From NCBI GenBank assembly GCA_913047375.1, contig CAJWTV010000001.1, positions 62,001-126,000 on the forward strand: a stretch of 64,000 bases of DNA. Reading direction: 5' to 3'. The position numbers and the translations under genes are program-made. The stretch comes from an uncultured Polaribacter sp. Its GTDB lineage: Bacteria; Bacteroidota; Bacteroidia; Flavobacteriales; Flavobacteriaceae. How positions within the stretch are numbered: position 1 is the stretch's first letter; the number at the start of each line of letters is the position of its first letter. Below the pieces are notes generated by a model. It saw only the letters and a program-made list of their open reading frames with translations. It searched no databases and had not been told where the DNA came from. Shown here piece by piece: positions 38,447 through 55,172 of the stretch.

Positions 38447-40759
38447 ATGAAAGTCTGTATTGCCGAAAAGCCAAGTGTCGCGAGAGAAATAGCATCTATT
38501 CTTGGAGCCAATACTAAACGTGATGGTTACTACGAAGGAAATGGTTATGCAGTAACCTATACTTTTGGCCATTTATGTACACTTTTAGAACCTAAGGATT
38601 ATAAGCCACATTGGAAAAGTTGGGATTTAAACAACTTACCGATGCTTCCTGAACGCTTCGACACTAAAGTTACTGGAGATACCGGAATTAAAAAACAATT
38701 TAATATTGTAAAGTCTTTATTCGAAAAAGCAGAAGTGGTTATCAATTGTGGAGATGCAGGAACTGAAGGAGAACTTATTCAACGTTGGGTAATTAATCAA
38801 TGCAATTACAAAGGAAAAGTATTACGCTTGTGGATTTCATCACTTACTGAAGAATCTATAAAAGAGGGGTTTAAGAATTTAAAGCCATCAGAACAGTATG
38901 ATAACCTTTATTATGCAGGATATTCAAGAGCAATTGGAGATTGGTTACTAGGATTAAATGCAACACGTTTATATACTGTGAAATTTGGAGGTTTTAAACA
39001 AGTCTTATCCGTAGGAAGAGTTCAAACTCCAACCCTAGCAATGTTAGTAAATCGTTTTAAAGAAATTAAAGAATTTATACCCAAACCATATTGGGAGCTT
39101 CAAACTAAATATAGAAATATTCTTTTTAATCATGAAGATGGTCGATTTTTAAGAAAAGAAGATGGACTAATTTTAGCTAACAATATTAAAGATTCAAATT
39201 TCGAGATTATTTCCGTAACTAAAAAAGAAGGAAAAGAATACGCACCAAAATTGTTTGATTTGACTGGATTACAGGTCTATTGTAATAATAAATTTGGTTT
39301 CTCAGCAGATGAAACACTAAAAATGGTTCAAAAGTTATATGAAATGAAAGTAGTCACATATCCTAGAGTTGATACTACTTTTTTACCCAATGATATATAC
39401 CCTAAAGTTAAAGGAATTTTATTGAAATTATCAAATTACAGTAAAATAATAAAACCGCTTTTGGAAAAAAAAATAAAAAAATCTAAGCGAGTTTTTGATG
39501 ATGATAAAGTAACAGACCACCATGCGATAATACCTACAGGAATTCAAGAGAATTTACAGTATAATCAACAACAAGTTTATGATATAATTACTAGAAGATT
39601 TATTGGAGTTTTTTATCCAGATTCAAATATCTCTAATACTTCAGTTATTGGTAAGGCTTCAAATGTAAATTTTAAAACAAATGGAAAAGAAATTATTACT
39701 AGAGGATGGCGTTTAGCATTTGAAACCGAAGAAACAAAAATAAAAGAAGAAAATAGTGAACAACACACTCTACCTACTTTTATCAATGGTGAAAAAGGTA
39801 AACATGAACCTTCTTTTTTAGAAAAGGAAACTAAACCCCCAAGAAATTTTACAGAAGCGAGTTTATTACGTTCTATGGAAACTGCTGGGAGACATGTTGA
39901 TGATGACGAAATGCGTGAGTTAATGAAAGAGAATGGAATTGGAAGACCTTCAACTCGTGCTAATATCATTGAGACTTTATTCCGAAGAAAATATATTGAA
40001 AGAAAAAAGAAATTGGTTGTCGCTACGCAAACTGGAATCGATTTAATTGATATAATTGATAATGATCTTTTAAAGTCTGCTGAACTAACTGGAAGATGGG
40101 AAAAACGCTTAAAAGAAATTGAAAGAGGAGAGTTTAATGCTGGAACTTTTATTGATAATATGAAAAAAATGGTTGATGAACTCGTATATGAAGTTCGTGC
40201 TAACAAAACTATAAGAAGAATTTCCTCTAATAATATTATTCCAATAAAGAAAAATGAAACGAAAAAAACAAATAATCCTGGAAAGAAAGATATAATTGGG
40301 AAAACTTGCCCAAAATGTAATAAAGGTAAATTAATCAAGGGCTCTTCTGCTTATGGCTGCTCTGAATACAAAAACAATTGTAATTTAAAAATTCCTTTTA
40401 AAATTATTGGAAAAAAAGTTTCTGTTAATCAAATGATTCGTTTAATAGAAAAAGGATGTACAACTAACCTAAAAGGTTTTAAAAGTGAATATGGATTTGT
40501 AGAAGGGTTAATTCGTTTTGATAAGGATTTCAGCATACAATTAGAGCCAAAAAAAAAGATTGAAAAAAAATATGATTCTTCAGAAAAATTAGTGTGCCCA
40601 AAATGTAAGAAAGGTGAAATTTTAAAAGGTAAAATAGCTTACGGTTGCTCGAATTATAAAATTGGTTGTGATTTTATTTTTAGTTTTGAAAACATAAAAA
40701 AAATCGCCAATGGAAAACCGTTGACGAAAGAATTTGTAATAAATATTTTACTTAAATAA
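38447..40759 (+). CDS. topB: DNA topoisomerase III (TopB) with C-terminal zinc ribbons
   Basis: The 770-residue type IA topoisomerase has an N-terminal TOPRIM domain (VCIAEKPSVAREIA and VINCGDAGTEGELIQRW) and the catalytic Tyr in EMKVVTYPRVDTTFLP. GRPSTRANIIETLFRRKYI lies in the later core. The C-terminus has two CxxC zinc-ribbon repeats (CPKCNKGKLIKG..YGCSEYKNNC and CPKCKKGEILKG..YGCSNYKIGC). It decatenates DNA and resolves recombination intermediates. It is convergent with gapN, with stops two bases apart. Confidence 0.95.
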   Translation: MKVCIAEKPSVAREIASILGANTKRDGYYEGNGYAVTYTFGHLCTLLEPKDYKPHWKSWDLNNLPMLPERFDTKVTGDTGIKKQFNIVKSLFEKAEVVINCGDAGTEGELIQRWVINQCNYKGKVLRLWISSLTEESIKEGFKNLKPSEQYDNLYYAGYSRAIGDWLLGLNATRLYTVKFGGFKQVLSVGRVQTPTLAMLVNRFKEIKEFIPKPYWELQTKYRNILFNHEDGRFLRKEDGLILANNIKDSNFEIISVTKKEGKEYAPKLFDLTGLQVYCNNKFGFSADETLKMVQKLYEMKVVTYPRVDTTFLPNDIYPKVKGILLKLSNYSKIIKPLLEKKIKKSKRVFDDDKVTDHHAIIPTGIQENLQYNQQQVYDIITRRFIGVFYPDSNISNTSVIGKASNVNFKTNGKEIITRGWRLAFETEETKIKEENSEQHTLPTFINGEKGKHEPSFLEKETKPPRNFTEASLLRSMETAGRHVDDDEMRELMKENGIGRPSTRANIIETLFRRKYIERKKKLVVATQTGIDLIDIIDNDLLKSAELTGRWEKRLKEIERGEFNAGTFIDNMKKMVDELVYEVRANKTIRRISSNNIIPIKKNETKKTNNPGKKDIIGKTCPKCNKGKLIKGSSAYGCSEYKNNCNLKIPFKIIGKKVSVNQMIRLIEKGCTTNLKGFKSEYGFVEGLIRFDKDFSIQLEPKKKIEKKYDSSEKLVCPKCKKGEILKGKIAYGCSNYKIGCDFIFSFENIKKIANGKPLTKEFVINILLK

Positions 40760-40761
40760 AT

Positions 40762-42339
40762 CTATAGAATATAGTCTGTACTTATGAAGTTAGATGTTTT
40801 CTTGTCTAATAAATCTTGTAAAATAGCATTATTGTAAGGCGTATCCTTCATTGCTAAGAAGGTTCTAATAGAAAAAGAACGTAAGGCGTCATGGACACTT
40901 AATGTTGCAACTGCAGAGTCTTTTCTTCCTGTAAACGGATACACATCAGGACCCCTTTGACAAGAACTATTTAAATTAACTCTACAAACTAGATTTACAA
41001 GAGTATCTATTAACGGAGATATTGTTTTTGCATCACTACCAAATACACTTACTTGTTGCCCATAATTAGATTCCGCCATATCGTTCAAAGGCTCATTAAT
41101 ATTAGAAAATGAAACAATTGGAGTTATAGGGCCAAATTGTTCTTCATGAAAAACACGCATCTGTTTATTAACTGGATAAATTACAGATGGAAAAATATAA
41201 TTTTCTGAACGCTCTCCTCCTTTTTTATTTATAATCTCTCCTCCTTTATTTAAAGCATCATCAATTAATTCTTGAATATAATCTGGTTTACCAACTTCAG
41301 GAAGTGGTGTTAACTTAACCCCTTCTTCCCATGGGTTTCCAAATTTTAATAAATCTACTTTTTCTGAAAAACGTTTATTAAACTCATCTACTATTGATTC
41401 ATGAACATATAAAACTTTTAAAGCTGTACATCGTTGACCATTGAAAGACATTGCTCCAGCAATACATTCATTAATAGCTAAGTCTAAATCAGCATCTGGT
41501 AAAACTATCGCTGGATTGTTAGCCTCTAGACCTAAAACTAAGCGTAATCTATTTCCCCTTGGGTGAAGACTTTGTAATGCTTTTGCAGATGTACTATGGC
41601 CAATCAAAGCCAAAACATCTATTTTCCCTGTTCTCATGATAGGTGAAGCTAATAATCTTCCTCTACCATATATAATATTTACTACACCCTTTGGAAAACA
41701 ATCTCTAAAGATCTCTACTAATGGAGATATTAATAAAACGCCATGTTTTGCAGGTTTAAAAACTACAGTATTTCCCATTATTAAAGCAGGAATTAACAAA
41801 GCAAAAGTTTCATTTAAGGGATAATTATAAGGACCTAAACACAAAACCACACCTAAAGGACCACGTCTAACATGTGCGTAAACTCCAGAATTTTTTTCAA
41901 ACTTTGCAGAATTTCTATCCATTTTCTTGTAGTCTTCAATAGTATCATAAATATAATCTACAGTTCTATCAAATTCTTTTTCTGAATCTGGTAAAGTTTT
42001 ACCTATTTCCCACATTAATAGTTTGACTATACCTTCTCTTTTAGTTTTCATTTTTGCAACGAAATTCTCCATCGCTGAAATTCTACCTTCTACTTTCATT
42101 GTTGGCCAAACTCCTTTACCCATATCATAGGCATTACAAGCAGAATCTAATGCTTCTAGTGCTTGTTTTTCACCTAATTGCGGTATAGTTCCTAAAACTG
42201 TTTGTTTGTATTCTTTAGTAGAAGAGATTGTTGATAAAACTGAAGAAGTATCTCCAGACCATTCTATTAATTCACCGTTAACTAAATAATGCTTTTGATG
42301 TAATAGAGAGTTTATTTTGTATTTTTCTGGTATTCCCAT
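40762..42339 (-). CDS. gapN: Non-phosphorylating glyceraldehyde-3-phosphate dehydrogenase (NADP-dependent, GapN-like)
   Basis: The 525-residue aldehyde dehydrogenase has the catalytic Cys in [15 protein letters not shown] and the general-base Glu in [27 protein letters not shown] is an ALDH cofactor/substrate segment typical of GapN. GapN oxidises glyceraldehyde 3-phosphate directly to 3-phosphoglycerate with NADPH production, bypassing ATP generation. A -7 box (42370-42377) lies over the ilvA stop, so it may be expressed on its own or by read-through from ilvA, 35 bases upstream. Confidence 0.85.
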
Positions 42340-42369
42340 AGATATATTTTGTTATTGTAATATAAAGTA

Positions 42370-42377
42370 CAAATTTA
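42370..42377 (-). promoter_or_regulatory. Candidate -7 box for gapN
   Basis: TAAATTTG on the minus strand is a perfect TAnnTTTG match about 30 bases before the gapN ATG. It overlaps the end of ilvA. Confidence 0.35.
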
Positions 42378-43637
42378 CACCAAAAACTGAAATAAATCAG
42401 GTTTGTTGTTTAAGTAATCACCAAAAAAGTTTTTTTCTTTCATTTTAAAAATTAAAGGAGCTAAGTCATCAGATGATTTAAGTTCTAAACCAACAACTGC
42501 AGCACCATTTTCTCTATTCGTTTTTTTAGTATATTCAAAATGAGTTATATCGTCGTTTGGTCCCAAAATATCTATTAAAAATTCTTTTAAAGCTCCAGCT
42601 CTTTGTGGAAATTTTATAATAAAATAATGTTTTAAATTGGCATATAATAAAGCTCTTTCTTTAATTTCTGCTGTTCTAGTAATATCATTATTACTTCCAC
42701 TTACAATACAAACTACATTTTTATTACGAATTTCACTAGAAAAGAAATCTAATGCAGAAACACTTAATGCACCTGCAGGCTCAACAACTATTGCATCTTT
42801 ATTATATAAATCTAAGATTGTCTGACAAATCTTTCCTTCAGGAACTGTTATCATATCTGATAGATTTTGTTGACAAATCTCAAAGTTTAAATCACCAACC
42901 CTTTTTACTGCGGCACCATCTACAAATGAATCTATTTTATGTAAAGAAGTGTTTATTTTATTATTAATTGATGTTTTCATTGAAGGTGCTCCTTCTGGTT
43001 CTACACCAATTATTTTTGTTTCTGGTGACAAATACTTAAAGACTGATGATAAACCAGATGACAAACCTCCTCCTCCAACAGCAACGAAAACATAATCAAT
43101 CTTTTGATCTGTTTGATTTAGTATTTCTAATCCAACTGTAGCCTGACCTTCAATTACCTTCTTATCATTAAATGGGTGAACAAATGTTTTAGATCTTGCT
43201 TTACATGCTATAGTTGCAGCATTATATGCATCATCAAAAGTATCTCCTTCTATAATAACTTCTATGAATTCTTCCCCAAACATTTTCACTTGTTCTATCT
43301 TCTGATTTGGGGTTGTCGAAGGCATATAAATAGTTCCTTTTATTTGCAATAACTTACAAGACAAGGCTACACCCTGAGCGTGGTTTCCTGCACTGGCACA
43401 AATAATACCTTTTTCTTTTTGTTCTTCTAATAATGAAAACATTTTATTGTATGCTCCTCTAATTTTATAAGATCTAACAACCTGAAGGTCTTCCCTTTTA
43501 AATAAAATATTTGCTCCAAATTTTTTAGAATATTGAAAATTCTTATTTAAAGGTGTAACAGAAGCTACTCCCTTTAAGTTTATAGAAGCAGCTTTAACGT
43601 CATCTAAACTTGGTATGTATATTTTTTTTAATTTCAT
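42375..43637 (-). CDS. ilvA: Threonine ammonia-lyase (threonine deaminase) IlvA
   Basis: The 420-residue PLP enzyme has the Schiff-base lysine in VRSYKIRGAYNKM, the glycine-rich PLP-phosphate loop VAVGGGGLSSGLSSV, and a C-terminal ACT domain (HYFIIKFPQRAGALKEFLID) suggesting allosteric control by isoleucine. It deaminates threonine to 2-oxobutanoate, the entry step to isoleucine. It is the last gene of the ilv cluster, with 3 bases after ilvC. The supply of threonine comes from thrBC on the other side of the cluster. Confidence 0.95.
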   Translation of the reverse strand: MKLKKIYIPSLDDVKAASINLKGVASVTPLNKNFQYSKKFGANILFKREDLQVVRSYKIRGAYNKMFSLLEEQKEKGIICASAGNHAQGVALSCKLLQIKGTIYMPSTTPNQKIEQVKMFGEEFIEVIIEGDTFDDAYNAATIACKARSKTFVHPFNDKKVIEGQATVGLEILNQTDQKIDYVFVAVGGGGLSSGLSSVFKYLSPETKIIGVEPEGAPSMKTSINNKINTSLHKIDSFVDGAAVKRVGDLNFEICQQNLSDMITVPEGKICQTILDLYNKDAIVVEPAGALSVSALDFFSSEIRNKNVVCIVSGSNNDITRTAEIKERALLYANLKHYFIIKFPQRAGALKEFLIDILGPNDDITHFEYTKKTNRENGAAVVGLELKSSDDLAPLIFKMKEKNFFGDYLNNKPDLFQFLV

Positions 43638-43640
43638 TAA

Positions 43641-45119
43641 TTAAACTTCTGATATAATTATTTTCATTGCAGTCATAGAAGCTCTTAATTTTGCACCTAT
43701 TTTTTCTACTGGATGGCTTCTAATGGAACTGTTAACGAAAATTAATTCTTGATTATCTACCCCATTTTTACTTATAAAGTTTCTTCCAATAACATTAGTT
43801 TTAACTGATTTCATAAAATCAGCTAATAAAGGTTTACATGCTTGATCAAATAAATAACAACCATATTCTGCTGTGTCGGAAATAACACGATTCATTTCAA
43901 ATAATTTTTTACGAGCTATAGTATTTGCTATTAATGGAGTTTCGTGTAAAGATTCGTAATAAGCAGATTCTTCAATAATTCCAGCAGCAGTCATCGATTC
44001 AAAGGATAATTCTACTCCTGCTCTAACGAAAGCAACTAAAAGTGTACCATGATCAAAATATTCTTGTTCTGAAATTTCTTGATCCGTAAGTTTTTGTTTC
44101 TCAAATGAAGTTTCCCCTGTATTAGCCCTCCAAGACAATAATTTTTCGTCATTATTAGACCAATCTATCATCATTTCTTTAGAAAAATCACCAGAGATGA
44201 TATCATCCATGTGTTTATTAAACAAAGGACGCATGATATCTTTTAATTCTTGTGAAATCTTAAAAGCTTCTATTTTTGCTGGATTAGACAATCTATCCAT
44301 CATATTAGTAATACCTCCATGTTTAAGAGCTTCTGTAGTAGTTTCCCATCCATATTGAATTAGTTTGGCTGCATAACCGGGATCAATTCCTTCTTCTACC
44401 ATTTTATCAAAAGATAAAATGGCACCTGTTTGTAACAAACCACATAAAATAGTCTGTTCTCCCATTAAATCTGATTTTACCTCTGCTACAAAGGAAGATT
44501 CCAAAACTCCTGCTTTATTTCCTCCAGTTGCTACTGCGTAAGCTTTTGCTTGAGACCACCCTTTACTTTCTGGATCATTTTCAGGGTGAACTGCAATTAA
44601 AGTTGGTACGCCAAAACCTCTCTTAAATTCCTCTCTAACTTCACTACCTGGTGATTTTGGAGCGACCATAATTACAGTTAAATCTTTACGTACTTGCATA
44701 CCCTCTTCTACAATATTAAAACCATGAGAGTAGCTTAATGTTGCTCCTTTTTTCATAAAAGGCATAATAGTATTTACTACATTAGTATGCTGTTTATCAG
44801 GAGTTAAGTTCAGTACTAAATCTGCAGAGGGAATTAATTCTTCATAGATTCCTACTTTAAATCCGTGTAAAGTTGCATTTTTAAAAGAATCACGTTTTTG
44901 ATCGATTGCAACTTGCCTTAGTGTATAAGAAATATCTAGCCCAGAATCTCTCATATTTAACCCTTGATTTAAGCCTTGTGCACCACATCCAATTATTACA
45001 ATTTTTTTATTCTTTAATGCATTTATTCCCTCTGAAAATTCTGAAGAATCCATAAATCTACATTTACCTAATTGCTCTAATTGATTTCTTAATGATAATG
45101 TGTTAAAGTAATTTGACAT
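43641..45119 (-). CDS. ilvC: Ketol-acid reductoisomerase IlvC (class II, long form)
   Basis: The 492-residue protein is the long class II KARI, with a duplicated helical C-terminal domain. The Rossmann glycine motif is [20 protein letters not shown]. It reduces and isomerises acetolactate or acetohydroxybutyrate with NADPH in valine/isoleucine synthesis. It is 14 bases downstream of ilvN and 3 bases upstream of ilvA, clearly in one operon. Confidence 0.96.
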
Positions 45120-45133
45120 GTTTTAATTTTTAT

Positions 45134-45661
45134 TTAGTTAAATGCTGATAACATTTGTGAAATTTCCATTGGCTTTTTAGATACAGATACTCTTCCAGAA
45201 CGTGTAAATTGTAAAATTTTAAAAGGTTTTAATTCTCTATAAATTAAATCTACTTCTTCTTTTTTACCTGATTTTTCAATAACAAAAAACTCTTTATTTA
45301 CAGTAACAATTCTTGCGTTACTATCCTTAATTATATTCTGAATCTGTCTTTCTTCAAATAATAAATCAGATTTCATTTTAAAAATACAAGATTCTTGATA
45401 AATTGTATCCTCATCTTTATGATGGTAGGCCTTTATTACCTCGACTTGCTTCTCAATCTGACCAATTATTCGTTTAATATTTTCTTCCGTCATATTTACT
45501 ACAATAGTAAATTTAGAAACACCTTCAATTTCTGATGGTGAAGTATTTAAACTTTCTATGTTGATATGTCTGCGTTGGAAAATTGCTGATATTCTATTTA
45601 ATAATCCAATATTGTTTTCAGTATAAATAGATACTGTAAATAGTTGCTTTTCTATATTCAT
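45134..45661 (-). CDS. ilvN: Acetolactate synthase small (regulatory) subunit
   Basis: The 175-residue protein has an N-terminal ACT domain (FTVSIYTENNIGLLNRISAIFQRRHINIESL) that binds branched-chain amino acids in the family, and a C-terminal ACT-like extension. It restores activity and gives valine feedback inhibition to the catalytic subunit encoded one base upstream. Confidence 0.94.
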   Translation of the reverse strand: MNIEKQLFTVSIYTENNIGLLNRISAIFQRRHINIESLNTSPSEIEGVSKFTIVVNMTEENIKRIIGQIEKQVEVIKAYHHKDEDTIYQESCIFKMKSDLLFEERQIQNIIKDSNARIVTVNKEFFVIEKSGKKEEVDLIYRELKPFKILQFTRSGRVSVSKKPMEISQMLSAFN

Positions 45662-45662
45662 A

Positions 45663-47396
45663 TTATTCTAATCTAATTTCTGAAACACTAGCACCTGAAG
45701 GAATCATTGGAAAAACATTACCTTCTTTTTCAACACAAACTTCTAAAAAATAAGCATCTTTACTTTCCATCATCTCTTTAACTGCTGATGAAAGTTCTTC
45801 TCTTTTAGTTACTTTTTTAGCTTTCAAATAATAACCTTCTGCTATTGCTACGAAATTTGGATTTACCATTTCTGTAGACGCATAGCGTTTATCAAAGAAT
45901 AACTGTTGCCACTGTCTTACCATTCCCAAAAAGTCATTGTTTAAAACAACAACTTTAACTGCTGCCTTTTGCTGGAAAATAGTTCCTAACTCTTGTATTG
46001 TCATTTGATATCCACCATCACCAGAAATAGATACAACTTCACGATCTGGGGCTGCCATTTTAGCACCAATAGCCGCAGGCAATCCAAAACCCATCGTTCC
46101 TAATCCACCAGAAGTTATATTACTTTTTGTTTTGTTAAACTGAGCGTATCTGCAAGCGATCATTTGATGTTGACCAACATCAGTTACTATAGCAGCTTCG
46201 CCTTTACTGTAAATATTTATTTCATTAATAACTTCACCCATTGTTAATCCCTCCTTTGTGGGATGAATATCATTTTTTATAACTTTTTCGTATTCAATGG
46301 CATATAAATCTTTGAATTTTTGATGCCATTCTTTGTGCTTATTTATTTCTAATAATGGTAACAATATTTCTAAACTTGCTTTTGCATCACCTAAAACTGC
46401 AACATTAGTCTTTACATTTTTATCAACTTCTGAAGGATCAATTTCAAAATGAATGATCTTAGCTTGTTTTGCATAGGTATTTAAACTACCTGTAACTCGA
46501 TCATCAAAGCGCATACCAATAGCTATTAATAGATCACATTCATTTGTTAACATATTGGGTGCATAATTACCATGCATTCCGAGCATACCGACATTTAATG
46601 GATGAGAGGTAGGTAACGCTGAAGCGCCTAGAATTGTCCAAGCTGCAGGTATTCCTGATTTTTCTACAACAGCTTTAAGTACTTGTTCAGCTCCACCTAA
46701 AATAACCCCTTGACCCCATACTATTAGAGGTTTTTTTGCATAATTAATTAACTTTGCAGCATCTGCTACAGCTGTTAAATTTATTTTTGGAGAGGGATTA
46801 TAACTTCTGACTTTCGTGCATATTTCGTAGGAAAAATCAAATTCCTCAAATTGTGCATCCTTAGTTATATCGATTAAAACAGGACCTGGTCTACCGCTTT
46901 TTGCGATATAAAAAGCTTTAGCTATTACTGAGGGTATTTCTGATGCTTTGGTTATTTGATGGTTCCACTTAGTAACAGGTGTAGAAATACCAACAATGTC
47001 AGTTTCCTGAAAAGCATCAGTTCCTAACAAGTGAGAAGCTACCTGTCCAGTAATACAAACCATAGGTGTAGAATCAATTTGTGCATCTGCAATACCAGTT
47101 ATTAAATTAGTTGCACCCGGACCAGAAGTTGCAATAGCTACACCAACTTTACCAGATATCCTTGCAAATCCCTGAGCTGCATGAGTGGCTCCTTGTTCGT
47201 GTCTTGCTAAAACATGATGAATTTTGTGCTGGAACTTATATAACTCGTCATATACGGGCATAATCGCTCCACCAGGATAACCATACAATATTTTAACTCC
47301 CTCTTCAATTAAACACCTAACAATGGCTTCACTACCAGAAATTCTTTCTTTAACCTTAGATTTATTTTTTATATTTTTTATGGTTTCTATTTCCAT
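45663..47396 (-). CDS. ilvB: Acetolactate synthase large (catalytic) subunit
   Basis: The 577-residue TPP enzyme has the catalytic Glu region YGYPGGAIMPVYDEL, the segment VLARHEQGATHAAQG, and the C-terminal TPP/Mg motif SISGDGGYQMTIQELGT with NNDFLGMVRQWQ. It condenses pyruvate, or pyruvate with 2-oxobutanoate, to start valine/leucine and isoleucine synthesis. Second gene of the operon, 38 bases after ilvD. Confidence 0.95.
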   Translation of the reverse strand: MEIETIKNIKNKSKVKERISGSEAIVRCLIEEGVKILYGYPGGAIMPVYDELYKFQHKIHHVLARHEQGATHAAQGFARISGKVGVAIATSGPGATNLITGIADAQIDSTPMVCITGQVASHLLGTDAFQETDIVGISTPVTKWNHQITKASEIPSVIAKAFYIAKSGRPGPVLIDITKDAQFEEFDFSYEICTKVRSYNPSPKINLTAVADAAKLINYAKKPLIVWGQGVILGGAEQVLKAVVEKSGIPAAWTILGASALPTSHPLNVGMLGMHGNYAPNMLTNECDLLIAIGMRFDDRVTGSLNTYAKQAKIIHFEIDPSEVDKNVKTNVAVLGDAKASLEILLPLLEINKHKEWHQKFKDLYAIEYEKVIKNDIHPTKEGLTMGEVINEINIYSKGEAAIVTDVGQHQMIACRYAQFNKTKSNITSGGLGTMGFGLPAAIGAKMAAPDREVVSISGDGGYQMTIQELGTIFQQKAAVKVVVLNNDFLGMVRQWQQLFFDKRYASTEMVNPNFVAIAEGYYLKAKKVTKREELSSAVKEMMESKDAYFLEVCVEKEGNVFPMIPSGASVSEIRLE

Positions 47397-47434
47397 GAAA
47401 TTATATTTTACTTTTATTTCCTAACATATTTTTA

Positions 47435-49117
47435 TTAAGCATCGGTAATACAACCTTTTGATGCTGAAGCAACTGTTTTTGCATATTTATATAATATTCC
47501 TTTTTTATGCTTTAGTTCTGGAGCAACCCAATTTATTTTTCTTTTGTTTAACTCTTCTTCAGTTAGTAATACATTAATTGAATTATCTTCTGCACTAATT
47601 CTAATAATATCTCCAGATTTTATTAGAGCTATAGTTCCTCCAGATTGAGCTTCTGGTGTAATATGACCAACAACAAAGCCGTGAGTACCTCCTGAAAATC
47701 GACCATCAGTAATTAAAGCTACTGACTTTCCTAAACCTGCTCCTGTTATTAGTGAGGTTGGTTTTAACATTTCTGGCATTCCTGGTCCTCCTTTAGGACC
47801 TACATATCTAATTACTACTACATCTCCTTTTTCAACATCTCCATTTGATATACCACTATTTGCAGATTGTTCACCGTCATACACAACAGCTTTACCTTCG
47901 AATAATAATCCTTCATTTCCTGAAATTTTTGCAACCGCTCCTTCGATTGCAAGATTTCCATACAAGATTTGAATATTACCAGATGATTTTAATGCTTTAT
48001 CTTTTGGATAAATTACATCTTGAGAATCTTTATCAAAAGTTAAAGGATCAATGTTTGCTAGATTTTCGGTCAATGTTTTTCCTGTTACTGTTAAACAATC
48101 GCCATGTAAATAACCGTTATCTAATAAATATTTCATAACAGCTGGGGTACCACCAACACGATGTACATCCTCCATTAAGTATCTACCTGACGGTTTTAAA
48201 TCAGCAATTAATGGAGTTCTATTACTTACTCTTTGAAAATCTTCTAATGAAAAATTTATATCTGCTGCATGGGCAATTGCTAAAAAATGTAGTACGGCAT
48301 TAGTAGATCCTCCTAAAGCGTTTACTATAGCAATAGCATTTTCTATTGATTTTTTAGAAATTATATCTAATGGTTTTAAATCTAATTCTAATAAGTTCTT
48401 GATTGCTAGAGCTGTCCTTTCTGCTTCTGATAATTTATTTGGGTTTTCCGCTGGAATTGATGAATTGTATGGCAATGAAAATCCCATACATTCTATTGCA
48501 GAAGCCATTGTGTTTGCAGTATACATACCTCCACAGGCACCTGCTCCAGGAATAGCTCTTTTTATAATTTCTTTATATTCTTTTTCTTCAATTTCACCTG
48601 CTACTTTTTGCCCTAATGCTTCAAAAGCTGAAACAATATTTAGTTTTTTTCCTTTGTAACTTCCAGATGCGGTTGTCCCACCATACATCATTATAGATGG
48701 TCGGTTTAAACGTAGCATAGCCATAACAGCACCAGGCATATTCTTATCACATCCAACAACAGAGATTAAGCCATCATAACTTTGAGCATTCATAACTGTT
48801 TCTATAGAATCCGCAATAATATCCCTTGACACTAATGAATAATTCATACCAGAAGTACCCATTGAAATTCCGTCAGAAACACCGATCGTATTAAATCCTA
48901 GACCAATTAAACCAGCAATTTTAGTTTCAATTTTAACTTCTGCAGCTAAATTGTTTAAGTGCATATTACAAGGGTTTCCATCGTAACCTGTACTTGCAAT
49001 TCCAATTTGTGCTTTTTGCATGTCGTCTTCAGATAACCCAACTGCATACAACATTGCCTGTGAAGCAGGTTGAGATTCATCTTGTGTTAACCTTTTACTA
49101 TGTTTATTTAATTTCAT
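47435..49117 (-). CDS. ilvD: Dihydroxy-acid dehydratase IlvD
   Basis: The 560-residue protein has conserved cysteines for an Fe-S cluster in [27 protein letters not shown] and [15 protein letters not shown]. Near the C-terminus [19 protein letters not shown] is the dehydratase signature. It dehydrates 2,3-dihydroxy acids in valine/isoleucine synthesis. Its ATG is 12 bases downstream of the stop of a leuA remnant and shares that remnant's promoter. Confidence 0.96.
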
Positions 49118-49129
49118 CTATTGAATTGA

Positions 49130-49270
49130 TCAGGCCTCAATTATATTGACACCTAATATGTCTAGACGTTCAGCTATCACTAACTTCTGTTTTGTATCTA
49201 ATTTGCATCCTGGCACTTGCTCACCATCTCTTAAAGTAGTATCAAAAATCTGAACTTTATTATCCTGCAT
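49130..49270 (-). pseudogene. leuA: 5' remnant of 2-isopropylmalate synthase (leuA), 46 codons
   Basis: An ATG at 49268-49270 opens a 46-codon frame that reads as a perfect LeuA N-terminus, with the catalytic signature [14 protein letters not shown] and a conserved [15 protein letters not shown]. It stops at TGA (49130-49132) right after NIIEA, where intact enzymes continue with GFP. Everything after this is ilvD. It is thus the head of a deleted leuA, kept in frame and uninterrupted, directly behind a -7 promoter box. It is too short for activity. It might still be translated as a leader peptide ahead of ilvD (inference). Confidence 0.88.
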
Positions 49271-49296
49271 CTTTATAATTTGTGTTTCATATAAAT

Positions 49297-49304
49297 CAAA
49301 TGTA
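49297..49304 (-). promoter_or_regulatory. -7 box for the leuA remnant and ilv operon
   Basis: TACATTTG on the minus strand is a perfect TAnnTTTG match 26 bases before the remnant ATG. The resulting transcript would carry the 46-codon frame in its leader, then ilvDBNCA. Confidence 0.5.
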
Positions 49305-49327
49305 TATCTTGGGCATTATTAATAGAG

Positions 49328-49335
49328 TATTTTTG
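49328..49335 (+). promoter_or_regulatory. Candidate -7 box of the 49399 gene
   Basis: TATTTTTG matches TAnnTTTG and has a TTG (49309-49311) 16 bases upstream. It is 63 bases before the ATG at 49399. Confidence 0.35.
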
Positions 49336-49398
49336 AAGTATCTAATACGACTTCTATTTCTTTTTAATAACAATTAAAAAACTAGTAATCAGTAATTT

Positions 49399-50964
49399 AT
49401 GACTAAAAGTATTACATCATTCAATCAACAAAAGGATTCTCTGTTTATTTTGGTAAAATCATTATCAAAATCAGAAAAGAGACAATTCAATCTTTATGTC
49501 AGTAGATTAGGTGGAAATATTGATGCTAAGTTCTTTTCACTATTTAAATTTTTAGAAAAAATAAAAATTTATAATGAAAAAGAAATTATCAAAAGTAATA
49601 TTGTTACTAAACAGCAATTGTCAAATTTAAAAGCTCATTTATATAAACAGATATTAATAAGCTTACGCCTTAACCCCTCTCACCAAAATATTCGTTTACA
49701 AATCAGAGAGCAACTTGATTTTGCAACAATTTTATATCAGAAAGGGCTTTATAAACAAAGTTTAAAATTATTAGAAAAAGCAAAAGGAATAGCCATCACT
49801 AATGAAGAAAATAATGTGGCTTATGAAATTGTAGAGTTAGAAAAAGTCATAGAAACACAATATATTACCCGCAGCATTAGTACAAGAGCAAACGTTCTTT
49901 CTTTACAGGCAAAGAATCTAAGTAAATTGAATGTGGTTACTAGTAAACTATCTAATTTATCATTACAGTTATACAGTCATTTATTACAAAATGGATATGT
50001 AAAAAATAATGAAGAGCTGGAATATATAACTTCTTATTTCAATAGAAAATTACCAAAATATGATTTTTCAAATTTTGGTTTTAGAGAAAAGCTTTGGCTA
50101 TATAAATCATATTTATGGTTTAGCCTTTTAACACAAGATTTCTTACAAAGTTACAAATATGCAAGTAAATGGGTAGACTTGTTTAAAGGTAATAAAGAAC
50201 TTATTTCTTTACATCCTGTCTTTTATTTAAAAGGGAAAAACTATTTTCTTGAAGCTTCTTTCTTAGTTAAGAATAAAAATAAATTTAAAGAAGAATTATC
50301 TTATTTTGAAAAAGAGATAAATGAAAAAAGTATTCCTCTGAATAGTAACACAGAAATACTAATATTTTTATATTACTATACAAATAAATTACACTTACAT
50401 TTCTTAGAATCAACTTTTAATGAGGGTGAGTACCTAGTTGACATAATTAATACTAAGATTGAAATTTACAAAAATAGATTAGATAATCATCATGTTGTTA
50501 TTCTGTATTATAAAATTGCATGTCTTTACTTTGGAATGAATAAGAATGAAGAATGTATTATTTACTTAAGTAAAATAATTAACACTAAAGATTTAAAAGT
50601 TGCTGAAGATCTTCAATGCTTTGCTAGAATTTTAAACTTAATTGCACACTATGAGTGTGGTTTAGATTATGATTTAGAGAGGCAATTTGTAGATACTTAT
50701 AAGTTCCTACTGAAAATGGAAAATCTACAAGAGGTTCAAAAAGAGTTTATAACCTCAATAAGAGATTTGAGTGATGTGTACCCTCATGAAATTAGAACTG
50801 AATTCAAAAAAATACATACAAGATTAAAGAAATATGAAAATCATAAATATGAAAAAAGAGCCTTCTTATATTTAGATATTTTGTCTTGGCTAGAAAGCAA
50901 AATCGAAAATAAACCTATCGCTGCGATCATTAAAAAAAAAGCAAGTAAACTATCTAAAAGATAG
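49399..50964 (+). CDS. Uncharacterised all-helical protein (TPR-like)
   Basis: This 521-residue protein is one I do not recognise by name. It has no signal peptide or membrane segment. It looks entirely helical, with repeated pairs such as QLDFATILYQKGLYKQSLKLLEKAKG that resemble tetratricopeptide units. The N-terminus has a conserved-looking LVKSLSKSEKRQFNLYVSRLGG. It is rich in Lys, Leu, Asn and Tyr. A scaffold or regulatory role in the cytoplasm is only a guess. It lies between the ilv operon (divergent) and thrBC, which has its own promoter. Confidence 0.7.
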   Translation: MTKSITSFNQQKDSLFILVKSLSKSEKRQFNLYVSRLGGNIDAKFFSLFKFLEKIKIYNEKEIIKSNIVTKQQLSNLKAHLYKQILISLRLNPSHQNIRLQIREQLDFATILYQKGLYKQSLKLLEKAKGIAITNEENNVAYEIVELEKVIETQYITRSISTRANVLSLQAKNLSKLNVVTSKLSNLSLQLYSHLLQNGYVKNNEELEYITSYFNRKLPKYDFSNFGFREKLWLYKSYLWFSLLTQDFLQSYKYASKWVDLFKGNKELISLHPVFYLKGKNYFLEASFLVKNKNKFKEELSYFEKEINEKSIPLNSNTEILIFLYYYTNKLHLHFLESTFNEGEYLVDIINTKIEIYKNRLDNHHVVILYYKIACLYFGMNKNEECIIYLSKIINTKDLKVAEDLQCFARILNLIAHYECGLDYDLERQFVDTYKFLLKMENLQEVQKEFITSIRDLSDVYPHEIRTEFKKIHTRLKKYENHKYEKRAFLYLDILSWLESKIENKPIAAIIKKKASKLSKR

Positions 50965-50996
50965 ATTATTAATATTTTCACAAACCTCTTTTATTA

Positions 50997-51029
50997 TTTG
51001 GTTGGATGTTATTGTTTCAACTATATTTG
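50997..51029 (+). promoter_or_regulatory. thrBC promoter (TTTG-21-TATATTTG)
   Basis: TTTG at 50997-51000 and TATATTTG at 51022-51029 are spaced 21 bases apart; a second TTG (51002-51004) gives 17. Both elements match the Bacteroidota consensus. Start of RNA is expected about 25 bases before the thrB ATG. Confidence 0.7.
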
Positions 51030-51061
51030 CCGATCTAATTAAATTTGGAAACATCTAAAAA

Positions 51062-51991
51062 ATGAATGAAATAAGAATTTTTGTACCTGCCACTATTGCC
51101 AATATTTCCTGTGGATTTGATGTATTAGGATTATGTTTGGATTCAGTTGGTGATGAAATGATTATTAAAAAAACTATAAAAAAAGGGATTACTATTAGTA
51201 AAGTCATCGGACAAGAATTGCCCTTAGATCCAAATAAAAATGTTGCTGGAGTAGCAGCGAATGCTTTATTAAAAAATCTTACAGTAGATTTTGGCTTTGA
51301 TATTGTTATAATTAAAAATATTAAACCTGGTAGTGGGATTGGTAGTAGTGCTGCAAGTTCTGCTGGAGCTGTCTTTGGAATTAATGAAATTCTTGGAAAA
51401 CCTTTTTCATTAAAAGAATTAATACCATTTGCAATGGAAGGTGAAAAACTAGCAAGTGGTTCAGCACACGCAGATAATGTAGCCCCTGCAATTTTAGGTG
51501 GTTTTACATTAATAAGAAGTTATGAGCCATTAGAGGTTATAAAAATCCACACTCCAAAAGAATTATATGCAACAATTATTCATCCTCAAATAGAGATAAA
51601 AACAATAGATTCTAGATCTGTAGTTAAAAAAGAAGTGCCTTTACAAACTGCAGTTAAACAATTAGGAAATTTAGGCGGATTAATTAGCGGTTTATATACA
51701 GAAGACTACAACTTAATAGGTAATTCTCTTCACGATGAAATCGCAGAGCCGTATCGTTCCATATTAATTCCAGAATTTGAAAACATTAAGAAAGAATGCA
51801 TTAAAAATGGTGCGTTGGGTAGTGGTATTTCAGGATCTGGTCCATCAATTTTTGCTTTGTGTAGAGGAAAGGAAAATGCAGAAAAGGTTAGTAGAGGTAT
51901 GAAACAGGTATATAATAAAACAGCAATCGCTTTTGATATACATGTATCAAAAATAAACGAGAGAGGAATTAAAATTTTAGAAACAAAATAA
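51062..51991 (+). CDS. thrB: Homoserine kinase ThrB
   Basis: The 309-residue GHMP-family kinase has PATIANISCGFDVLGL at the N-terminus, the ATP loop KPGSGIGSSAASSAGAVFG, and a C-terminal GSGISGSGPSIFALCRG. It phosphorylates homoserine for threonine synthesis. The stop is two bases from the thrC ATG. The usual upstream partner thrA (aspartokinase/homoserine dehydrogenase) is not next to it. Confidence 0.95.
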   Translation: MNEIRIFVPATIANISCGFDVLGLCLDSVGDEMIIKKTIKKGITISKVIGQELPLDPNKNVAGVAANALLKNLTVDFGFDIVIIKNIKPGSGIGSSAASSAGAVFGINEILGKPFSLKELIPFAMEGEKLASGSAHADNVAPAILGGFTLIRSYEPLEVIKIHTPKELYATIIHPQIEIKTIDSRSVVKKEVPLQTAVKQLGNLGGLISGLYTEDYNLIGNSLHDEIAEPYRSILIPEFENIKKECIKNGALGSGISGSGPSIFALCRGKENAEKVSRGMKQVYNKTAIAFDIHVSKINERGIKILETK

Positions 51992-51993
51992 TT

Positions 51994-53277
51994 ATGAACT
52001 ATTATAGTTTACACAGAAAATCACCTAACACCACATTTAAAACAGCTGTTAAGGAAGGACTTGCAAAAGATAGAGGTATTTATTTTCCTGAAGAAATCAA
52101 CCCACTTTCTGCTGATTTTTTTAAAAATATAGAAAAATATTCTAAAGAAGAAATCGCTTTTGAAGCAATTAAACAATTTGTTGGTGATGAAATTCCAAAA
52201 ACAATTTTAAAGAAAATAATTAAAGAAACTGTTTCTTTTGATTTTCCTGTTGTAGAAATTGAAAATAATATTGGTACTTTAGAGTTGTTTCATGGACCCA
52301 CAATGGCATTTAAAGATGTTGGTGCACGTTTTATGAGTTCTTGTTTAGAATACTTTAATCTAGAAAATAACGAAGAAATTACTGTTTTAGTAGCAACTTC
52401 TGGAGATACTGGCGGCGCTGTAGCTAATGGATTTTTAAACACAAAAGGTGTTAAAGTCGTTATCTTATACCCTAGCGGGAAAGTAAGTAATATTCAAGAA
52501 AAGCAACTGACAACTTTAGGTAATAATATTACAGCACTTGAAGTAGACGGGACTTTTGATGATTGTCAAGAGATGGTTAAAACTGCTTTTTTAGATGATA
52601 AAATTAAAAGAACCTTAACCTCTGCTAATTCTATAAATGTAGCACGCTGGTTACCACAAATGTTCTATTTTTTCTTTGCCTACAAACAATTAAAAAATCA
52701 AAACAAAGAATTAGTTTTTTCTGTTCCTAGTGGAAATTTTGGTAATATATGTGCAGCAGTAATAGCAAATAAATTAGGTTTACCTATAAAGCACTTCATT
52801 GCCTCAACGAACATAAATAATACAGTAGAAAATTATTTAGAAAACGGAGAATACGTCCCAAAACCTTCTAAAGCTACAATTTCAAATGCTATGGATGTTG
52901 GTAACCCAAGTAATTTCATTAGGATTCAAGAATTATTTAACAATGATTTGAATGCTATAAAAAATAAATTCTCTTCTTTTAGTTTTGATGATGAATCTAC
53001 CAAGAAAGCTATGGTTTCTATATTTAAAGAAACAAAATATGTCGCGGAGCCACATGGAGCTATCGGTTATTTAGGTTTAAAAAAATATCAATTAACTGAT
53101 AATGAATATGGTGTTTTCTTAGAAACAGCTCATCCTGTAAAATTTTTAGATATTGTGGAATCGACCTTGCCTGTAAAAATAGATATCCCTGAACAAATTA
53201 AAAAAGTAATAGATAAAAGAAAAGTAGCTATCAGAATCAGTACTTATACGGAGTTAAAAGAATATTTAAATTCTTAA
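51994..53277 (+). CDS. thrC: Threonine synthase ThrC
   Basis: The 427-residue PLP enzyme has the Schiff-base lysine in GPTMAFKDVGARFM and the PLP-phosphate region VATSGDTGGAVANGF. It converts O-phosphohomoserine to threonine. Co-transcribed with thrB. Its product feeds ilvA, encoded about 8 kb away on the other strand. Confidence 0.95.
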   Translation: MNYYSLHRKSPNTTFKTAVKEGLAKDRGIYFPEEINPLSADFFKNIEKYSKEEIAFEAIKQFVGDEIPKTILKKIIKETVSFDFPVVEIENNIGTLELFHGPTMAFKDVGARFMSSCLEYFNLENNEEITVLVATSGDTGGAVANGFLNTKGVKVVILYPSGKVSNIQEKQLTTLGNNITALEVDGTFDDCQEMVKTAFLDDKIKRTLTSANSINVARWLPQMFYFFFAYKQLKNQNKELVFSVPSGNFGNICAAVIANKLGLPIKHFIASTNINNTVENYLENGEYVPKPSKATISNAMDVGNPSNFIRIQELFNNDLNAIKNKFSSFSFDDESTKKAMVSIFKETKYVAEPHGAIGYLGLKKYQLTDNEYGVFLETAHPVKFLDIVESTLPVKIDIPEQIKKVIDKRKVAIRISTYTELKEYLNS

Positions 53278-53322
53278 AGCTATCAAAATTATATTGATCT
53301 TTTATGAAACTTAAGGAAACAA

Positions 53323-53544
53323 CTACTTAAGAATCGTTTTTTCATATAATTTTTCAACCTTTTCTCTAGCCCAAGGTGTTGTTCTTAAAAATTTTAAACT
53401 CGATTTATAGGTTGGGTTATTCTTAAAAGCATTCATATTTAAAATATCTCCCAATTCTTCCCAACCATATTCTAAAAATAATTGTTCTAATATAGTTGCT
53501 AATTTAATTCCGTGTAGCGGATTATTTGGTTGTTCTTTACTCAT
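53323..53544 (-). CDS. VF530 (DUF2132) family small protein
   Basis: The 73-residue protein matches VF530/DUF2132: [25 protein letters not shown] and [20 protein letters not shown]. The family adopts a small helical fold thought to bind DNA; the function is not established. The ATG overlaps the stop codon of the aminopeptidase gene (ATGA), so it is translationally coupled to it. Confidence 0.85.
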
Positions 53545-55172
53545 TTTTTATCTAAATCTGGTAAGACAAAATCATCTAAAATAGATTTTCTAGCCATCAT
53601 TTCTTCTATATCTTTTGTTGTTCTGGGTGCCTCTGATGATAAGTTTACAGGACCATTTTTAGTTACTAAAATGTCATCCTCAATACGAATTCCAATTGCC
53701 CACCATTTTTTATCACATGCACTTCCTTCAGGGATATAGATTCCCGGCTCCATAGTAACAACCATATTCTCTTCAAAATTACCATAATTTCCTGGATCAT
53801 GAACATCTAAACCAATATGATGAGAGGTTCCATGAGGAAAATAAGGGTGTGGTTGGTTTATTGAATCAATGATGCCTAAATTAAATAACCCTTGATTAAC
53901 AACTCTTCTTGCTATTTGATTTGGTTTAGCCATACTATTATTGATCACATAAGCAGCTATTCCTGCTTCTTGAGCATCATAAACTATATCATATATAGCT
54001 TTTTGTTCAGTTGTAAATTTTCCATTGGCAGGAATTGTTCGTGTAACATCAGCCGTATAACCTCTATATTCAGCTCCTAAATCCATTAAGACCAATTCAT
54101 TTCCAACTTTAGTTTGATTGTTTTCAATATAATGTAGAATACAACCATTATTTCCTGCTCCAACTATAGATGGGTAGCCTTCATATTCTGCACCATATTT
54201 TTTATAAACAAATTCATGAATACCCTGTAACTCTGTTTCTGACATATGAGGCTTCATGGCTTTCATTACTTCAACTTGTCCAATCGCAGAGATACGAATT
54301 GCTTTTATTAGTAGTTTTAATTCTTCAGGACTTTTAATTTCTCTTAATGATGCTAATGTTGATGTTAAAAAAGAGATATCAATATTTGTTTTAATATCTA
54401 ATTTTAGAGAAATTTTTTGTTTTAATTCAATCTTTAACTTTTGATCTGTGGCTTCTTTAAATTTCATTAAATCTTCATCATCCTTTAATGAAGAGTCATA
54501 GGATAACGCTCTTCCTATAATTTGGGCAACATTAGCACTGTTCTCAATTGGGGTTGCTTTAATTAATTCATAAACTTGTTTTTTTATCGGTGAAATAAAA
54601 TTATTAGAATTATAACCTGAATTTTGTTTAAATGAAACTACTAAATCATAAACTTCAGAGGTGTTTTTTAATGAATTTCTATAATCGTCATTAAATTTTT
54701 CGATAAAAACTCTATTAAACTTTTTAAAATTAATGCTCGAGTTTATAAAATCTTCTGCATTAAAAACTGTTGAAAAATCTAATTCACTTTTAGCACCTTC
54801 GATTCCCAAGCGTTTACCGTTCCATTGCTCTGCCCTTGCATCACGTTTTTGGACGTATAAAATCTCGTTATATATAATACCTTTCTTATCAGTTTGATCC
54901 TCAGAAAATATTATAAGAACAGCGTTTGGCTCTCTGTATCCTGTTAAATAATAAAAATTTGGATCCTGATGAAAAACATAATCTACATCATTTGCTCGGT
55001 TTCTAACTGGATTTGAAAAGACTACAGCTATAGAGTTAACAGGCATTTTGGATCGTAAAGCACCTCTACGATTTTTATGAAAATCTTTTGATAAAAAATC
55101 TTTTGGTGTTTGAGAAAAACTATTTATTGAAAAAAATAAAAAAGCAAGAAAAATAAATTTAAAAACCTTCAT
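53541..55172 (-). CDS. Secreted aminopeptidase P family metallopeptidase (Xaa-Pro)
   Basis: The 543-residue protein has a signal peptide ([20 protein letters not shown]), an N-terminal creatinase-type domain and a C-terminal pita-bread domain. Metal ligands are visible: [14 protein letters not shown] (two Asp), [13 protein letters not shown] (His), [11 protein letters not shown] (Glu) and GIRIEDDIL (Glu). It removes N-terminal residues next to proline, probably from peptides in the periplasm. It has its own -7 box, 5' to the coupled VF530 gene. Confidence 0.92.

Follow-up and report, generated by a model that had tools for sequence, protein, structure and literature searches.

A leuA head precedes an intact ilvDBHCA operon

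The window, by which we mean the whole 64 kb stretch of DNA analysed here, carries the genes ilvDBHCA on its minus strand, preceded on the same strand by the head of a leuA gene. The first gene of the operon, ilvD (47435..49117, minus strand), is intact, and its product of 560 aa shows 84–91% identity to the main group of genus orthologues. It is followed, again on the minus strand, by ilvB (acetolactate synthase large subunit, 45663..47396), ilvH/ilvN (acetolactate synthase small subunit, 45134..45661), ilvC (ketol-acid reductoisomerase, 43641..45119) and ilvA (threonine dehydratase, 42375..43637). Upstream of ilvD, a frame at 49270..49130 (minus strand) encodes a LeuA N-terminus of 46 codons and ends in TGA (49132..49130), with 12 nt between this stop and the ilvD ATG at 49117. 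The junction segment, TCAATTCAATAG (49118..49129, minus strand), itself ends in TAG, a second in-frame stop that directly precedes the ilvD ATG; as the remnant and ilvD frames are in the same phase, these two stops alone prevent a LeuA-IlvD fusion. Measured from stop to stop, the remnant frame spans 61 codons. A TACATTTG box (49304..49297, minus strand), which we assign as the −7 element of the former leuA promoter, lies 34 nt upstream of the remnant ATG (49270) and is the nearest such box upstream of ilvDBHCA. Beyond it, on the plus strand, is a divergent gene that we call DivX (49399..50964), which flanks leuA in relatives and fixes the left side of the deletion described below. Its product is weakly like a BT2802-family protein (86 bits, against a family cut-off of 550), and a Pfam profile search with it returned no match. 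A DivX homologue adjoins leuA also in three Lutibacter loci.

The remnant matches the HMGL-like profile PF00682 (E = 1.3e-11, residues 5–46, profile positions 1–42) and the NCBIfam models for 2-isopropylmalate synthase (best E = 1.5e-17). Among the matches listed, it shares 78–96% identity with the LeuA heads of other genomes, and for this reason is not a chance frame. Its N-terminal HMGL-like part contains a 10-residue motif that we take to be LeuA's. Codons 1–42 are clearly leuA-derived, and codons 43–46 are less certainly so because the two arms of the deletion resemble each other there. Where a PF00682 match ran on through both stops, we take its continuation into the ilvD frame to be fortuitous; the remnant alone accounts for the profile positions given above. 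With 46 codons, compared to 391 aa for the intact LeuA of the sister genome G023, the remnant is not a complete LeuA. The first-pass annotation had described a 46-codon LeuA head behind TACATTTG, with its stop 12 nt before ilvD, in a cluster lacking leuB, leuC and leuD; the coordinates and profile matches agree with this description, and none of the three genes lies in the cluster.

The box alone is weak evidence, since TACATTTG occurs five times, and TAnnTTTG 98 times, in the 64 kb window (both strands). Across the genus, TAnnTTTG stands before leuA at −36..−39 in 57/57 loci with leuA upstream DNA, a count that leaves out the contig-edge locus L141, and the promoter consensus given for Flavobacterium johnsoniae in an excerpt of PMC6847099 is TANNTTTG/TAHHTTTG. 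A five-codon frame (ATGAAA..TAA, 49290..49273, minus strand) was noticed by eye between the leuA box and the leuA start, and, also by eye, at the same place in the sister loci L063, L065, L067 and L079. Elsewhere in the genus a palindrome, AAGATAATCTT, follows the leuA box: it is exact in 25/57 loci (e.g. L069 and L082), occurs with at most two mismatches in 38/57, and is missing from the clade of the window. This palindrome may serve leuA as an operator or as part of its leader.

Sister loci hold leuA-leuC-leuD-leuB between the same flanks

An IlvD search over 146 genus (Polaribacter) genomes gave matches in 136, and up to 6 kb upstream of ilvD was taken for 80 of the 91 main-group loci (at least 84% identity over most of the protein), leaving out the other 11 main-group loci, five fragments and a group of ~70% identity. 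By tblastn, 47 of these 80 loci contain DivX, leuA and leuB, seven contain DivX, leuA, leuC, leuD and leuB, and one more has the same set plus ilvE. Where DivX is not in view, four loci have leuACDB and two have leuA-leuB; in the remaining 19, no leu gene is seen within the stretch taken. Of the loci examined, the five closest (L063, L065, L066, L067 and L079) all read DivX< leuA> leuC> leuD> leuB> ilvD>, the full sister order being DivX, leuA-leuC-leuD-leuB, a terminator-like hairpin, an ilvD promoter-like box and ilvD. In a tree built from 54 DivX proteins, one of them from the window, the window groups with exactly these five loci (support 1.0).

The distance from the leuA ATG to the ilvD ATG is 153 nt in the window and 4574–4601 nt in the five sisters, which makes it 4421–4448 nt longer in the latter. 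The window aligns with the leuA UTR and head of the sisters as far as codon 46, the alignment being ungapped in the head and interrupted once, by 4 nt, in the UTR; past codon 46, only about the last 9 nt before ilvD resemble, by eye, the ilvD leader of the relatives. The comparison shows the missing segment, the order in relatives, an intact ilvDBHCA and an assembly in which no leuABCD was found. Our main reading, to which we give a probability of roughly 0.92, is that a deletion of ~4.42 kb took leuA from about codon 46, leuC, leuD, leuB, the hairpin and the ilvD box, and that the leuA promoter and head now stand directly upstream of ilvD. All of these parts would have been lost in one event. 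That ilvD had been joined by a deletion to the promoter and opening codons of leuA was already proposed from the window itself, and the five closest loci bear this out by holding leuA-leuC-leuD-leuB between the same flanks; aligning the locus with relatives, a check set beforehand, places leuA upstream of ilvD in the sisters.

The precise ends of the deletion are blurred. Short direct repeats were considered as its cause and rejected: a GTCAA...GAAGC-like string is present in both arms, yet the best local arm-versus-arm score in the five sister loci is equalled by 22–73% of random pairs, and, the likeness being no better than chance, no repeat explains the deletion. Two further observations concern the sister genomes. 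In L065 (genome G111), leuB (~4550–5683) is split by a frameshift, which is either a fault of the assembly or a first sign that this pathway is decaying there too. G023 has a second, divergent ilvD-ilvB pair (C1:1647573-1649240 and C1:1649289-1650986; 66–68% identity) beside the usual one.

An identical junction would arise if the two ends of a normal leuACDB-ilv locus had been wrongly joined, and the junction is indeed seen in one fragmented assembly only (1.48 Mb, 62 contigs, 68% complete). We nevertheless judge such an artefact very improbable. The contig carrying the junction is 198 kb long, the junction contains no N, and leuB, leuC and leuD were not found on any other contig of the assembly. 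In addition, both sides belong to one lineage, with DivX 90% identical to that of G023 and IlvD 90–91% identical to those of the five sisters.

Predicted replacement of the ilvD promoter

In 70 of the 80 genus loci, the last 60 nt before the ilvD ATG contain a promoter-like box, which in 53 of those 70 lies at −33..−31. Over 200 rounds of a shuffle control, the corresponding means were 4.0 (last 60 nt) and 0.3 (−33..−31) of 80 loci, with maxima of 9 and 2. The box is present in 56/61 loci with leuB upstream. Its commonest form, TAATTTAG, deviates from the consensus by one base, and the forms TATTTTTG and TAATTTCG are also found. The native ilvD promoter is identified by conservation only. The window has no such ilvD box. 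A hairpin with a T-run follows leuB in 5/5 sisters, ~195 nt before ilvD (−11.4 to −14.9 kcal/mol), and this pattern is likewise absent from the window. In L066, this hairpin after leuB was passed over by a simple terminator scan, perhaps because the T-run was counted into the stem.

Judged by these sequence elements, ilvD looks like a separate unit in the relatives. An operon fusion presumes that other genes intervene in relatives, as they do in 5/5 sister loci, and that the upstream terminator and the downstream promoter are lost, which holds here for the putative leuB terminator and the predicted promoter of ilvD itself. With both the ilvD box and the leuB hairpin gone from the window, the event, as far as these predicted elements go, not only removed genes but also replaced a promoter, which extends the first-pass annotation. 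The ilvDBHCA genes would then be transcribed from the former leuA promoter. The spacing from box to transcript start in F. johnsoniae is 4–5 nt according to the available part of PMC6847099; with the start set 5 nt after the box, the predicted ilvD leader measures 174 nt in the window versus 19 nt in the five sisters.

Further from the ilvD start, at about −60 to −90, a CTGAATTTAAAG-like conserved stretch was seen by eye in genus loci such as L069, L099 and L108, and in many loci, again by eye, an inverted repeat resembling TTGAATTTTATTCAA precedes the promoter-like box of ilvD. We regard the CTGAATTTAAAG/TTGAATTTTATTCAA region as a candidate operator, lost in the window. A conserved leader ORF before ilvD, in the form of a 25-codon frame that overlaps the ilvD start in the sisters, was rejected on inspection by eye, since its start is not kept over the 80 loci; the conserved stretch behind it contains the TAATTTAG promoter-like box.

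Leucine synthesis in the genome and in the genus

A genome-wide search for leuABCD, also set beforehand as a check, found nothing beyond the remnant in the 68%-complete assembly. There is no second leuA in the assembly, where the other PF00682 match is an HMG-CoA-lyase-like gene, and hence no full-length copy elsewhere in it of which the fragment might be a duplicate, as the first-pass annotation had considered. The sole PF00330 match is aconitase-2-like, and a sister LeuC query has no match in the assembly. PF00180 and PF00694 are also without a match in the 68%-complete assembly, while each matches in 14/14 control genomes. Leucine auxotrophy is the resulting prediction, and a prediction only, because the assembly is 68% complete and leu genes could lie elsewhere. 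The cell would make valine and isoleucine and need outside leucine, with peptide uptake being likely; two PTR2 transporter frames and two aminotransferase class IV genes are present in the genome.

Across the genus, 156 of 166 genomes match the 46-residue LeuA head at E ≤ 1e-12, and the window's is the only one of these in which leuA is cut to so short a frame. Six of the 156 were checked separately and have leuA frames of 391–396 codons. In none of the other 155 head-bearing genomes does the leuA head form a short leader-like frame; the short frame is therefore not a conserved leader in these relatives, as it might have been had it been of independent origin.

Several candidates for a second case were rejected. 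The next shortest leuA frame, of 104 codons, is that of G103 (L229, C68:26000-31500), where a frameshift lies near codon 93 and the rest of leuA and leuCDB follow. The frames of G153 and G167 (304 and 332 codons) are cut by contig ends. G107 has ilvD and ilvB with no leuA or leuC match, and no leu piece lies in the 12 kb around its ilvD. The DivX homologue adjoining ilvD in L174 (Saprospiraceae) is only 37% alike, and this locus has no leuA match. Lastly, five short leu matches in named loci (best 80 of 595) all lie at locus edges.

Ten genomes lack the head. Nine of them also lack a LeuC match, the exception being G177, which has a LeuC match and a contig-cut leuA; seven lack an IlvB match, whereas G039, G107 and G177 have one. 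The pattern suggests that the whole branched-chain pathway has been lost repeatedly in the genus, and in two genomes, G039 (73% complete) and G107 (93% complete), it may be just the leucine branch that has gone, with no visible scar. The genomes with no leuA head, LeuC or IlvB match are G106, G020, G152, G169 and G202, plus the incomplete G007 and G126. The genome of the window is the only one seen with a visible scar of leucine-branch loss.

Fate of the leuA head

Compared to the five sisters, the remnant head has a pS of 0.66–0.85 and a pN of 0.023–0.032. Of the changes private to it, 13 are synonymous, or 0.45 per synonymous site, and 3 are nonsynonymous, altering 2 amino acids. In simulations, an intact frame with at most two amino-acid changes remained in 34% of runs at a neutral divergence of 0.03, in 9% at 0.05 and in 0.2% at 0.1. 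Either the deletion was followed by a neutral period no longer than ~1/8 of the branch, by our estimate, or the frame has been constrained. As there are too few amino-acid changes for long neutral drift, the deletion would be recent, and a recent deletion appears the simpler explanation of the undamaged frame: since the substitution pattern fits it, the frame needs no function to be intact.

Ribosomes would still start at the leuA ATG and terminate 12 nt before ilvD, and ilvD would be translated by reinitiation, independent initiation, or both. With only 12 nt between a stop and the following start, reinitiation is possible in principle; according to an extract of PMC6728339, it seems not to depend on Shine-Dalgarno motifs in Bacteroidetes. 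A leader role for the remnant, with ribosomes loading at the leuA start, stopping and reinitiating at ilvD, is plausible. It would go further to say that selection keeps the 46-codon frame as a translated leader, termination-reinitiation setting IlvD output as ribosomes are brought from a strong leuA start to just ahead of ilvD, whose start is itself weak. Consistent with this, leuA has A at −3 and −6, which promotes initiation in F. johnsoniae (PMC6847099, in the part available), and ilvD has T and C there. The short spacing from the remnant TGA to the ilvD ATG fits as well, as does the absence of any indel in 138 nt, and remnant residues equal those of the sisters at 44/46 positions in three of the five and at 43/46 in the other two. 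However, T stands at −3 and −6 of the native ilvD start in 5/5 sisters and is more frequent at −3 than any other base (50/80 loci), so that the weak start context is ancestral. The predicted openness of the ilvD start is also similar, at 0.52 in the window versus 0.42–0.65 in the five sisters, and, if the deletion is recent, no selection is needed for the frame to be intact. We thus consider selection on the frame possible but on the unlikely side. We are doubtful that the deletion was itself retained for placing the valine/isoleucine operon under the leuA promoter, the head being now, in one step, a working 46-codon leader for ilvD. If this were true, the first codons of a dead enzyme would have turned into a regulatory frame in a single step.

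The position of the frame, upstream of an ilv operon, together with its content of Leu, Ile and Val (14/46 residues, the longest run being the three of LVI), could also call to mind an attenuator that senses leucine, or a regulatory leader peptide that is conserved and arose independently. These residues, LVI included, nonetheless belong to intact LeuA and are kept in relatives; being LeuA's own, they reveal no control-codon design. In none of the other 155 genus genomes with a leuA head is that head a leader-like short frame. No terminator-like site was listed in 48900..49500, by a scan that also missed the relatives' hairpin in L066, and that hairpin is itself absent from the window. A cmscan search of Rfam over 40000..54000, up to E = 5, returned three hits (E 1.3–2.6), all below the gathering score and none to such a leader, and a riboswitch or attenuator was rejected for want of Rfam support in the window and, at gathering score, in three sister loci. 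The locus thus has neither a long Leu/Ile/Val codon run, nor an intrinsic terminator, nor a described leader RNA family, and we hold both an attenuator and an independent leader peptide to be extremely improbable. The reading that we keep is a leuA head left behind by a probably recent deletion.

Comparison with known systems

The portions of the open-access literature consulted hold no description of this locus or of a gene head turned leader. The leucine-rich attenuator peptide of S. aureus, as presented in an excerpt of PMC5794164, is similar in that it, too, links a short translated frame to genes for branched-chain amino acids; unlike it, the frame here is a gene fragment, with no terminator after it and no sign of control-codon design. 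Streamlined marine Flavobacteriaceae, e.g. Ca. Winogradskyella atlantica, offer another parallel as small pelagic genomes losing amino-acid synthesis, and the accessible text of the paper on this species names arginine, methionine, leucine and valine among its losses (PMC9723794). In contrast to what that text reports, ilvDBHCA is intact here, the leucine branch alone is missing and the scar is visible.

The locus would represent a snapshot of a small-genome bacterium losing one branch of a pathway, in which four genes, a terminator and a promoter were deleted and the shared upstream pathway was kept by borrowing the promoter of the lost operon. The expected phenotype is leucine auxotrophy with valine and isoleucine synthesis retained, and the locus could serve to test whether a leftover gene head becomes a translational leader in a phylum seemingly without Shine-Dalgarno use.

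Promoter capture, or operon fusion, by deletion is known from classical bacterial genetics. As in those cases, a promoter has been removed, the downstream genes have been joined to an upstream promoter and the head of the first gene has been left; the difference is that the present case comes from a wild genome and that the two pathways concerned, leu and ilv, are metabolically linked. Capture of a promoter through a deletion is thus a familiar kind of event, of which the present case is an unusually clear one.
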